A DNA stretch of 44,393 nucleotides. Source: a virus. The DNA is taken from IMG/VR virus record IMGVR_UViG_3300009079_000034, positions 1 to 44,393 of that record; one strand, written 5' to 3'. The stretch's first letter is position 1. Every line of letters begins with the position of its first letter. Both the position numbers and the translations under genes were made by a program. Below are positions 40,813-44,278 of the stretch, piece by piece. The notes under the pieces were generated by a model, which was given only the letters and a program-made list of their open reading frames with translations, made no database searches and was not told the origin of the DNA.

Positions 40813-42033
40813 ATGCTTGAATTAGCATTACGGGCGAAGGTGCCTATGCTGGCGGTCACATCTACCGACACACTGAACGCGGGGGCCGTATTGCAGGCCT
40901 TGGCTCAGTCCAGCAAAAAGGTCACATTCAAAGCCGACCTGACTGTGAAGGCAGTCGAGAACACCAATTTTACCTACATACTGACAGGCCCTATTACTGA
41001 TCAGGCAGACACCCTTGAGGAGGTTTATCGTGCCGCCGAAGCTGAGGACAAATGCGTGATCTTCCTAAACGCCGAAGTTGAATCTACGCTGCTGCTAGAT
41101 TGCGGCGAGATCATGGTTCCTAGGGCCATGGTTCAGGCTTACTTGTCATCCCTTGGCATCCTGTCAGACCAAGACCTAGCGGATGTCCTGCTTCTGTTAG
41201 GGGGCGTGACGCTGAAGGAGGTAGATGATATCTGCCGCCTAACCATGGCCAGAGATCAGAGCCTATCTCCGCGTGGGGTGTCGGAGACCCGCAGGCATCT
41301 GGTAGGGGGTACTAGGGGGCTGATGCAGATAGATACCACCAGCTCGTTCTATGATGCCCCTGTCTTTCTGGCTGACTATGTGGATGGCAACGCGGCCTTC
41401 ATGCTGGGAGAGGACGATAGGCTACGCCCTAAGGGCCTGATGTTTACCGGTATACCCGGAACTGGCAAAACTGAAGGGGCCAAATATATAGCCCAAAAGT
41501 GGGGCATCCCGCTATACCATTTGGACATCGGAATGATGATGGGCAAGTGGGTTGGGCAGTCTGAGGAAAACCTGAGGACAGCCTTGGCTCGGGTAGACAG
41601 GGAGGAGCCTTGCGTGATCTTGCTGGACGAGGTTGAAAAGGTCTTTACCCAAGGCGATGACAGCGGCGTAGCTACCCGTATGATGTCTCAACTGCTCTGG
41701 TGGTTGCAGGAGCATAGCAGCCGCGTGTTCGTGGTTATGACCTGCAACAACAAGGACGCCATACCTGATGAACTTTACCGCCCCGGACGCATTGATGACA
41801 CGTTCTGGTTCGGAGGAATGACCACCTTTGCTAATGGTATTTCACCTAGCATAGAGACCTTTTTGTTCGGCGTGTTGGAGGCTTGGGACTACGGCTATAT
41901 GCTGGATCATGAATATGACGAAAGCATCCAAGAATATATAGAGCAGCGCATGAACGACACCAACAACCTGAAGACTGTTCCTCAGGCTTATCTGGTGCAA
42001 TGGGCTAAAGAATGGGTAAAGAAGTATATTTGA
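40813..42033 (+). CDS. AAA+ ATPase, Ycf46-like
   Basis: 406-aa protein. Walker A G-I-P-G-T-G-K-T (213-220), Walker B C-V-I-L-L-D-E-V-E-K (267-276), Asn-rich sensor 1 (312-313) and R-P-G-R-I-D (323-328, arginine finger region), all intact. The N-terminal about 190 residues match, in outline, the regulatory domain of Ycf46-type ATPases: T-S-T-D-T, then F-L-N-A-E-V-E. Ycf46 relatives are ill understood. In this place, between unknown early genes and replication genes, the protein may remodel a host or replication complex. ATG preceded by AAGGAG; the TGA stop lies within the promoter at 42030. Confidence 0.85.
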   Translation: MLELALRAKVPMLAVTSTDTLNAGAVLQALAQSSKKVTFKADLTVKAVENTNFTYILTGPITDQADTLEEVYRAAEAEDKCVIFLNAEVESTLLLDCGEIMVPRAMVQAYLSSLGILSDQDLADVLLLLGGVTLKEVDDICRLTMARDQSLSPRGVSETRRHLVGGTRGLMQIDTTSSFYDAPVFLADYVDGNAAFMLGEDDRLRPKGLMFTGIPGTGKTEGAKYIAQKWGIPLYHLDIGMMMGKWVGQSEENLRTALARVDREEPCVILLDEVEKVFTQGDDSGVATRMMSQLLWWLQEHSSRVFVVMTCNNKDAIPDELYRPGRIDDTFWFGGMTTFANGISPSIETFLFGVLEAWDYGYMLDHEYDESIQEYIEQRMNDTNNLKTVPQAYLVQWAKEWVKKYI

Positions 42034-42058: not shown

Positions 42059-42100
42059 CAGCCGCTTAGGCAAACAGTAGCACCCATGGAGGGTACAAGC

Positions 42101-42679
42101 ATGACTCAGGCACTTAATATTGAAAAAGCAGATTGGATGGTAGGCACCAACGGCGGGAAAGATTATGTCGTAATAGCCAGAGAGCAAGGTATAGCCCTTG
42201 GTATCAAGGTGGTCGAAGAATCAGGAGGCGGGGTGGCTTGCTTTGGCGTCCGTATCCGTGCAGCCCTTGACCCTAACCCACCGGCGGATCAACCGCTAAT
42301 AATCGTCCCTGACGTAGCCAAGCAGGCAGACAGTATCTTTCCTATCGAATATACCAAGAAGGACTATGACCGTAGTTCAATTGGCATCGTGGCCCAAGGG
42401 CCGTTACCGCCCACGCTGGAAGACTTCAATAAGATAGTCAGCAGCAAGGCAGGCACCGGGACTATGCGAGCCACCATCATCGGAGAGCTGTCTAAGATTG
42501 AGACCAAGCTGCTCTATACCCTAGAGGACATTGCAGATTGGGTTATGTCGGGCGTAGCCGAAAAGGTCGATCTTATCCGTCACAACGTATACCCCAACGA
42601 GATGCAGCAAGCAGGCAAGACGCCTGAAAAAGGTAAGGTCGTGTCCGTAGACTTTGGCCAAGGCAAGACCAAGCACTGA
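42101..42679 (+). CDS. Hypothetical early protein (192 aa)
   Basis: Driven by promoter B. I chose ATG 42101, seven bases after GGAGGG, not the in-frame ATG 42086 that lies in the ribosome-binding sequence. Mixed alpha/beta, no membrane segment or known motif; Y-V-V-I-A-R-E-Q-G-I-A-L-G-I-K-V-V then a Pro-rich turn (N-P-P-A-D-Q-P-L-I-I-V-P). Ends with a basic tail. A terminator follows, so it is a separate short transcript. Confidence 0.65.
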   Translation: MTQALNIEKADWMVGTNGGKDYVVIAREQGIALGIKVVEESGGGVACFGVRIRAALDPNPPADQPLIIVPDVAKQADSIFPIEYTKKDYDRSSIGIVAQGPLPPTLEDFNKIVSSKAGTGTMRATIIGELSKIETKLLYTLEDIADWVMSGVAEKVDLIRHNVYPNEMQQAGKTPEKGKVVSVDFGQGKTKH

Positions 42680-42689
42680 ATGGTATCTG

Positions 42690-42717
42690 CCCGTAGCTAT
42701 CAGGTTGCGGGTTTTTT
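42690..42717 (+). terminator. Terminator before the replication genes
   Basis: Eight-pair stem CCCGTAGC with GTTGCGGG (two G-T wobbles), loop TATCAG, then six T. It separates the promoter B transcript from the replication initiator. Confidence 0.8.
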
Positions 42718-42737: not shown

Positions 42738-43664
42738 ATGGCAGTAGAGTTTGTAAGGTGGGTAATGGCCCACAGCCCTGTCCAGCGCGGGGAACATGCA
42801 GTATTGCTGGTATTGGCTGAACGCGCTAATAGGAAGACCGGCGTAGCTTGGCCATCAGTGACCTTAATTGCACATGAATCAAAACTAAAAAGACGATGGG
42901 CTCAGGAATGCCTAAAGCGCCTCCAAGGCCGTGGCCTGATCGAAGCAAGGGGACGAACCGCCTACGGTGTAACCAAGTACGAGCTGAAGTTTAAGGCTGA
43001 GGCACTGACTGCACAGGGGGGGTGCATTCCAATGCACGGGGGGGTGCATTCAGATGCACAGGGGGGTGCAGTCCTATGCACCTTAACCGGAATAGAACCG
43101 GAAACAGAACCGGAAGTTAACCAAGGGGGCTCCGCCCCGTGTTTACATCAGGAGGTATCAGACTTGGGAACAGCGAACGATATAGCGGTGGGATTTAAAG
43201 ACAACCCTGACTCTGCAAAAGATGGGAAGCGGGAATCAGTTAATAAGACCCTGCTGATGGATTTCCAATACTTATGGAATACCCTGTCAACAGAGTGTGG
43301 GCATTATGAGTTCGCACCTTTATGGGTAGCCAAGCGCGAAGGGGCCTACATAGGCCAATTCATTAAGAGCTGTCCTAAAGGCCGAAGCAAAGACGTGTTC
43401 CGGGGCGTGATGGAAGACTGGTGGGGCTATTGCCTGCATGTAGGCAACGCTCAAGGCCTAACTAAGAAGATCCTACCTACCAAGCCTCAAGTGAAGTTTA
43501 TGGCTCGCTATGGGGCTGAGGCTGTAGACTACATCTTAAGCAACGGTTTTGAGCCTAAGGCAACAACAGAAACCAAGGCCATCACAAAAGGTCAGCAGCA
43601 TAAGAACGCTGTAGATGACTACCTAGCCATGCTAGAAAAGATGACCGGCGGTAAGGAGGGTTGA
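42738..43664 (+). CDS. Replication initiator with winged-helix domain and internal iterons
   Basis: 308-aa protein. Residues 15-85 form a helix-turn-helix/winged-helix domain (H-A-V-L-L-V-L-A-E-R-A, W-P-S-V-T-L-I-A-H-E-S, C-L-K-R-L-Q-G-R-G-L-I-E) of the HTH_36 type used by phage O-like replication initiators. Residues 92-130 are a Gly/Pro/Thr linker encoded by three palindromic repeats. The C-terminal domain (about 145-308) is helix-rich and may bind the helicase. I use ATG 42738 because it follows the terminator; an in-frame 42654 start would cross it. Layout matches lambda O, whose origin lies in its own gene. Confidence 0.8.
   Translation: MAVEFVRWVMAHSPVQRGEHAVLLVLAERANRKTGVAWPSVTLIAHESKLKRRWAQECLKRLQGRGLIEARGRTAYGVTKYELKFKAEALTAQGGCIPMHGGVHSDAQGGAVLCTLTGIEPETEPEVNQGGSAPCLHQEVSDLGTANDIAVGFKDNPDSAKDGKRESVNKTLLMDFQYLWNTLSTECGHYEFAPLWVAKREGAYIGQFIKSCPKGRSKDVFRGVMEDWWGYCLHVGNAQGLTKKILPTKPQVKFMARYGAEAVDYILSNGFEPKATTETKAITKGQQHKNAVDDYLAMLEKMTGGKEG
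42857..42872 (+). promoter_or_regulatory. Repeated directional element, copy 7, inside the initiator gene
   Basis: Thirteen of 16 bases match the consensus, with 13 consecutive bases, GACCTTAATTGCA, identical to copy 4. It lies in the coding sequence for the DNA-binding helices. Confidence 0.45.
43016..43081 (+). repeat. Three palindromic iterons at exact 22-bp spacing with G-tracts, candidate replication origin
   Basis: Centres repeat every 22 bases: GTGCAT-TCCA-ATGCAC (43022-43037), GTGCAT-TCAG-ATGCAC (43044-43059), GTGCAG-TCCT-ATGCAC (43066-43081, one arm mismatch). G-runs of 7, 7 and 6 bases precede them, giving strong strand bias. Three AACCGGAA copies follow at 11-12-bp steps (43085-43115). 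The position, inside the linker of the initiator gene, equals that of lambda ori. Confidence 0.7.
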
Positions 43665-43666
43665 TC

Positions 43667-44278
43667 ATGACAACAACCACGCTACCAGATGGCGTCAGTC
43701 AGGCCATGGTAAATCACCTGACAGCGAACGCTAAGTATTACGCCCACAAGATCCTGATTCCAGAGCATCATCAGCGGCTAGTGCAAAACCTCGCCTCAGT
43801 GGCCCAGACAGCGCATATACCGCCCCAATACATCTACCGGTACTCCATGGCTGACCATTGCACTCAGGCCGAGCTAGATTGGGTCAGGACGCTGCATAGC
43901 CATGAGGACGAGGATTGTGCTGGTCTGATCTATGAGGGTAAGCAGCCTAAGCTGGATCAAAGAATGATGACCATGGCCGGAGCATTCATTAGAAATTATA
44001 TTGACGCTCGGGTATATCCTGTTCAAGACATCGTGCAGATGCTTAAGCGCGGGAAAAAGCCGGAAGGTACTATCATCCTAGTCCCTAACTTTTTCCTTAC
44101 TAAAGAGAACGGGGGCCATGTAGCAACTTGGGAAGTGTCTGCTCTGTTGGGGTGGCTCTATGACCGCTATGGGTCAAGTCAGCAGACGGTGCTCTATGTC
44201 CAATCATTGACAGCGGTTGAGCAGGAGTATGGCACCAGTTTTAAAGACCACATTGACGAGCATTTTCAGAAGCTCTAA
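43667..44278 (+). CDS. Helicase-loader-like replication protein (203 aa)
   Basis: ATG 43667 preceded by AAGGAGGG at six bases. It directly follows the initiator, where lambda P or a DnaC-type loader is expected. The C-terminal half (I-R-N-Y-I-D-A-R-V-Y, I-L-V-P-N-F-F-L-T, L-L-G-W-L-Y-D-R-Y, T-V-L-Y-V-Q-S-L) looks like the strand and helix order of a DnaC-like ATPase core, but I find no Walker A, so it would be a degenerate or adaptor-type loader. The N-terminal half is helical. Function inferred from order and weak similarity. Confidence 0.55.
   Translation: MTTTTLPDGVSQAMVNHLTANAKYYAHKILIPEHHQRLVQNLASVAQTAHIPPQYIYRYSMADHCTQAELDWVRTLHSHEDEDCAGLIYEGKQPKLDQRMMTMAGAFIRNYIDARVYPVQDIVQMLKRGKKPEGTIILVPNFFLTKENGGHVATWEVSALLGWLYDRYGSSQQTVLYVQSLTAVEQEYGTSFKDHIDEHFQKL

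Follow-up and report, generated by a model that had tools for sequence, protein, structure and literature searches.

Positions 43016-43122 of the virus record IMGVR_UViG_3300009079_000034 probably form a two-part replication origin within the gene of a replication initiator, in which three palindromic iterons are followed by a phased array of AACC motifs that would act as the unwinding element. The window, by which we mean the whole stretch of DNA analyzed, is this IMG/VR record from position 1 to 44,393 (44,393 bases). A lambda-like origin inside the initiator gene is the most likely reading of iterons and an array that both lie in the codons of a linker. Palindromic iterons in an origin that sits within an O-like gene follow the lambda design, which is already known; the widely conserved part is the AACC array, which was undervalued in the original prediction made for this DNA. 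The features are as follows.

42738..43664, + strand: replication initiator gene, 308 aa, with an N-terminal winged helix, a predicted disordered linker and a C-terminal domain (Pfam and PHROG matches)
42798..42941, + strand: codons of the HTH_36 winged-helix domain, residues 21-68 (Pfam, AlphaFold2, Foldseek)
42999..43259, + strand: codons of the predicted disordered linker, residues 88-174 (AlphaFold2 pLDDT below 50), enclosing the entire putative origin
43007..43014, + strand: possible degenerate half-iteron GACTGCAC, an inverted-repeat match to iteron 3
43016..43037, + strand: iteron 1, a G7 spacer (run starts at 43016) and the palindrome GTGCATTCCAATGCAC (43022-43037)
43038..43059, + strand: iteron 2, a G7 spacer (run starts at 43038) and the palindrome GTGCATTCAGATGCAC (43044-43059)
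43060..43081, + strand: iteron 3, a G6 spacer (run starts at 43061) and the imperfect palindrome GTGCAGTCCTATGCAC (43066-43081), with one arm mismatch
43085..43122, + strand: phased array of four AACC (43085, 43096, 43108 and 43119; steps 11-12-11), candidate DNA-unwinding element
43661..44278, + strand: downstream gene (phrog_22850, unknown function), at the slot where relatives have a P-type replication gene

The product of the open reading frame at 42738-43664 matches Pfam HTH_36 (E 1.5e-7) and, in PHROG, the replication initiation protein phrog_1032 (2e-11) and the O-like phrog_391 (6.7e-9). The AlphaFold2 model has a block mean pLDDT of 84-96 over residues 21-80 and a C-terminal fold of low confidence, and the top Foldseek matches are winged-helix DNA-binding proteins, though none has an E below 0.001. 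Because the repeats encode residues 93-129 and the pLDDT is below 50 across residues 88-174, they fall within the predicted disordered linker. Linkers predicted to be disordered leave their codons free for origin sequence, and one stretch of DNA can in this way stand under two codes. In relatives, the gene that follows the initiator gene is annotated as replication P family. For the gene at this slot in the window (43661..44278), phrog_22850 was the sole PHROG match, no PDB relative was found, and the predicted fold was poor and uninformative. An AAA ATPase gene lies upstream of the initiator gene at 40813-42033 (Pfam AAA 1.1e-29, phrog_10401 3.4e-77), and a terminator-like hairpin with a T-tail occupies 42689-42712, after the upstream gene (42086-42679) and before the initiator gene; no sigma-70-like promoter was found nearby. 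The GC skew across the window gave no origin signal.

Each of the three 22-bp iterons (43016-43081) is composed of a spacer of 6-7 G and the palindrome GTGCAnTCnnATGCAC. Their start-to-start distances are 22 and 22, their identity to iteron 1 is 86-91%, and the G7 runs of iterons 1 and 2 are the only two in the whole window. The lag-22 self-match of the iterons is 38/44. In 1000 synonymous-codon shuffles of the gene it reached at most 33/44, and nowhere else in the window does it rise above 30/44. Since 22 is not a multiple of three, the iterons are read in three frames (as GGCIPMH, GGVHSDA and GGAVLCT), and the repeat is therefore a feature of the DNA, with selection acting on the DNA. The iterons, palindromes, G-runs and AACC copies of the original prediction were all found where it had placed them. 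The sequence supports its interpretation in part: that of a lambda-like origin located in codons for the linker of a winged-helix initiator, with repeats selected at the DNA level. Its further statement, that the initiator likely binds its own gene, would be compatible with this. A search for the exact iteron pattern across IMG/VR gave no occurrence beyond the window.

The sequence AACCGGAA is present at 43085, 43096 and 43108, which agrees with the three copies at 11-12 bp described before; the additional AACC at 43119 had been missed. The complete pattern, AACC-N7-AACC-N8-AACC-N7-AACC, has one occurrence in the window and zero in 100 shuffles. Compared with synonymous shuffles of the window gene alone, the AACC chain is merely suggestive (P about 0.06), and its significance comes from the relatives.

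Neither tblastn in phages nor single-protein scans of GTDB and IMG/VR yielded a close relative of the whole initiator protein. Phage initiators share 33-46% identity with its N-terminal domain, and a multi-sequence alignment search obtained relatives in IMG/VR and none in GTDB. We retrieved 80 IMG/VR loci with an N-terminal peptide pattern independent of the linker, and a second homology set, in which one of the peptide patterns was derived from the linker, enlarged the sample from 30 to 46 non-redundant genes. In the Pseudomonas phages Riah and TC7 and the Streptomyces phage TurkishDelight, the corresponding place is occupied by iterons whose sequence is quite different, with AACC directly 3' of them at steps of 11-12-11 (Riah), 11-12-12 (TC7) and 11-12-10 (TurkishDelight). 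Among cultured phages with this layout of iterons and array, Riah- and TC7-like phages are the nearest relatives. Spacers of G- or C-runs between palindromes also recur in relatives, for example the Pseudomonas phages and L051, which does not support the claim of an unusual architecture. The linker of the L039 initiator gene has six copies of an 18-bp unit, CCAGTCCCAAAAACGGTA; because this length is divisible by three, the encoded peptide, TSPKNG, is repeated too.

Three or more AACC at steps of 11-12 bp were found in 15 of the 30 genes of the first set, with AACC ranked first among the 256 tetramers and a synonymous-shuffle expectation of 2.0 genes. The enlarged set gave 27 of 46 genes (shuffle means 2.8-3.8, maximum 8), to be read with the qualification that the genes are related and not fully independent and that shared descent lies outside the shuffling null. 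All the remaining step windows from 6 to 22 bp gave at most 2 genes each in the 46-gene set, and when AATC was accepted as a variant the count became 31 of 46 (5.8 expected). Steps of 11-12-11 (in 12 genes) and of 11-12 (in 9) are common, and AACCRTCAnnG is the consensus unit. In 43/46 genes the iteron-like repeats outscore all of 40 synonymous shuffles of the same gene, and in the 31/31 genes with an AAYC array they lie 5' of it, often only a few bases away. The GC content of the array is below that of its own gene in 27/27 cases (means of 44% and 59%), while the 100 bp upstream, the iteron region, average 64%. The window gene has three or more AACC spaced by 11-12 bp, in linker codons and 3' of its iterons, and belongs to the proposed shared-array class. 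Four HTH initiators that appear AACC-negative or short (L025, L045, L066 and L636) have a similar phased AATC repeat, e.g. GAATCATCATTAGAATCATCA. The array is present in 2 of 12 DUF1376 genes. AACCC at 11-12 bp steps was also observed in the linkers of DUF6291 / DUF1376 phage proteins (L091, L103, L111, L121, L134, L144 and L157), where the arrays typically come after 'GKKGGRP' or 'GSKGGR' and no obvious palindromic iterons are seen.

The repeats, their constraint at the DNA level, their fixed order and their conservation in relatives can be read directly from the sequences. From them we infer protein binding, melting, strand capture and origin activity in the following way. The three TGCA palindromes, which the G-run spacers keep 22 bp, or about two turns, apart, would be bound by dimers of the initiator winged helix, and a nucleoprotein complex would form on them. 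The adjacent, less GC-rich AACC array (11-12-11 bp) would melt as the DNA-unwinding element, the assembled initiator would hold one strand via the repeated AACC (or GGTT) motif, and this strand capture would let the helicase loader deliver the helicase. Initiator sites beside an unwinding element would be expected to look as they do here, with putative GC-rich binding sites and, after them, a less stable array of strand-specific repeats. It counts against the unwinding role that the array is just moderately AT-rich: in the window its GC content is 47%, compared with 64% for the iterons and 50% for the remainder of the gene, and the array is motif-based and less AT-rich than the lambda region.

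The alternative that survives best accepts the same origin and considers the AACC array to be a second duplex binding site, for the other domain of the initiator or for a partner protein, instead of a melted strand-capture element. We regard it as rather unlikely, yet it has a precedent in the lactococcal phages TP901-1 and Tuc2009, whose replisome organizers bind regions of direct repeats that lie within the organizer genes and constitute the origin (PMC8965321, a published summary), and AACC arrays with 11-bp steps occur in the Tuc2009 and r1t genes. A spacing of roughly one motif to each helical turn would also fit one-sided binding to duplex DNA. The family spacing is, however, 11-12 bp and not 10-11 bp; the idea that 11-12 bp matches one DNA turn holds approximately, with a family mean near 11.5 bp that exceeds 10.5 bp. 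Moreover, the array is constantly on the same strand, 3' of the iterons and with a GC content below that of the gene, which is a better fit to a strand-specific unwinding element.

It is very improbable, and largely refuted, that the AACC repeats are a by-product of protein-level selection on a conserved linker peptide (T-x-x-E-P-x-x-E-P). The peptide ITIxEPSIEPS is indeed well conserved among close relatives, but the synonymous shuffles preserve the protein and predict 2.8-3.8 array genes where 27 of 46 were observed, and the synonymous choices are fixed to AACC. The Glu of the linker Glu-Pro is encoded by GAA in 74/83 cases (89%) against 342/712 (48%) elsewhere (P about 1e-13), and in GC-rich genes the corresponding values are 88% and 35%. 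In the xT[VI]xEP context of the first repeat, Thr is encoded by ACC in 26/26, and in 26/26 the codon preceding it ends in A, compared with 21% of all codons. Some family genes have the AACC motif in other reading frames, and the linker that would have to be under selection is predicted to be disordered.

We find it hardly credible that replication or translation is regulated by a G-quadruplex made of the G-runs, with the palindromes as its loops. Three G6-7 runs do occur within 51 bp, and the iteron segment folds better than shuffles on both strands, but on the coding strand of the Pseudomonas relatives the runs consist of C, and L037 is without long G- or C-runs, so that same-strand runs are not conserved; palindromes at fixed spacing fit protein dimers instead. 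We give equally little credence to the conserved array being mainly a recombination joint for swapping N- and C-terminal modules of the initiator: lambdoid modules are known to exchange and the array does lie where the winged helix and its iterons give way to the variable C-terminal part, but AACC at 11-12-11 spacing with variable bases between is not needed for a joint.

A DNA-only scan of IMG/VR for AACC at 11-12-11 gave at least 120 loci, and 102 of those listed are inside ORFs of at least 100 aa. Among the 102 ORFs listed, the PHROG matches, which overlap, were to replication-initiation (43), primosomal (27) and DnaD-like loader (17) families, and the Pfam matches to HTH_36 (36), DUF1376 (10) and DUF6291 (10). 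A CCAA control with identical spacing gave, among 84 ORFs listed, 10 matches to O-like families and 19 to primosomal ones. CCAA is not a clean control, probably because repeats of the AACCCAA and CAACCAA kind contain both motifs, and since it is also enriched in replication genes, albeit less than AACC in the O-like ones, the AACC enrichment outside the HTH family needs care. With the spacing changed to 12-11-12, there were 14 HTH matches among 122 places listed. In the 11-12-11 scan of GTDB, only 2 of the matches listed and examined lie in an HTH initiator, Streptomyces L327 and L366; the other matches listed mostly look like chance or simple repeats, and we rejected the pattern as a stand-alone marker in bacterial chromosomes. 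The Rhizobium loci of GTDB (L324, L350, L354, L392, L395 and L414), from several species of the genus, have a conserved AACC-containing segment, AACCAAGGAGAAACCAAATGGCAAACCAAGGTGGAACCCA, with variants, and no HTH-initiator ORF.

An array common to many otherwise dissimilar phages suggests an undescribed common DNA-opening signal, and in the openly licensed literature we found no description of the AACC array as a general element. A more general proposal, which we offer tentatively and which may well prove wrong, is that a single code for opening the origin is common to many tailed phages whose initiators and iterons differ. In this code AACC, or its variant AATC, would recur every 11-12 nucleotides and would be recognized in single-stranded form by the initiator or by a loading factor that these phages have in common; the code would be comparable to the DnaA-trios of bacterial chromosomes. 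If the array is an unwinding element, it would provide a sequence signature for origins in many uncultivated phages that are without the AT-rich tract of lambda, and it would become possible to test how phage initiators that are unrelated to one another open DNA and select the strand on which the helicase is loaded.

The arrangement resembles the lambda ori in gene O in that the putative origin is in the middle of the initiator gene, here one with HTH_36 and O-like PHROG matches, and contains several tandem iterons with dyad symmetry. A lower-GC element lies 3' of the iterons in both, and in lambda gene P comes next. The palindromes had been presented as a difference from lambda, a contrast that fails because each lambda iteron is likewise an imperfect inverted repeat (PMC7466680). 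The differences are that the iterons here are TGCA palindromes with G-run spacers and a 22-bp step, and that AACC repeats are found where lambda has an A/T-rich purine tract. The AACC array was sought in lambda O, TP901-1 rep and Rac ydaU and was absent from them; it is not universal.

The lactococcal replisome-organizer origins consist of direct repeats within the organizer gene (PMC8965321), much as the putative origin of the window lies within its initiator gene, and two of those phages share AACC arrays: the rep gene of Lactococcus phage Tuc2009, annotated as containing the origin, has four CAACC at 11-11-11, and orf11 of Lactococcus phage r1t has four copies of GGAACC at 11-11-11. Footprinting reportedly placed the r1t organizer on short direct repeats within the gene that encodes it, which we take as a lead only. 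Palindromic iterons were not noted beside the lactococcal AACC arrays, so the repeats there may be ordinary duplex binding sites. Unlike the HTH_36 O-like protein of the window, the lactococcal initiators carry the annotations DnaD-like helicase loader or conserved C-terminal domain protein. The window protein has no DnaD-like helicase-loader family among its listed PHROG matches and is thus not an initiator of the Rep2009/Pro11 type. ORF11 of r1t has been named a homolog of the TP901-1/Tuc2009 organizers (PMC8965321). A further comparison is the DnaD protein of Bacillus subtilis, which reads a strand-specific single-stranded DNA motif in the unwound origin (PMC10201434); its element consists of TnnT pairs at variable distance, whereas the window array consists of AACC at fixed spacing.

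RK2 oriV and Vibrio cholerae ori2 are similar to the window in having short tetranucleotide repeats beside initiator-binding sites, which are putative here. In both of these systems the sites are outside the initiator gene. The initiators are unrelated to that of the window and no homology is implied. The unwinding element of RK2 has four GGTT repeats, GGTT being the reverse complement of the window's AACC, and that of Vibrio ori2 has ATCA repeats (PMC10316083). Plasmid Rep proteins bind one strand of the unwinding element and the iterons together (PMC4081077), and by analogy we infer that the AACC array is a candidate origin-opening element of the kind found in RK2 or Vibrio ori2.
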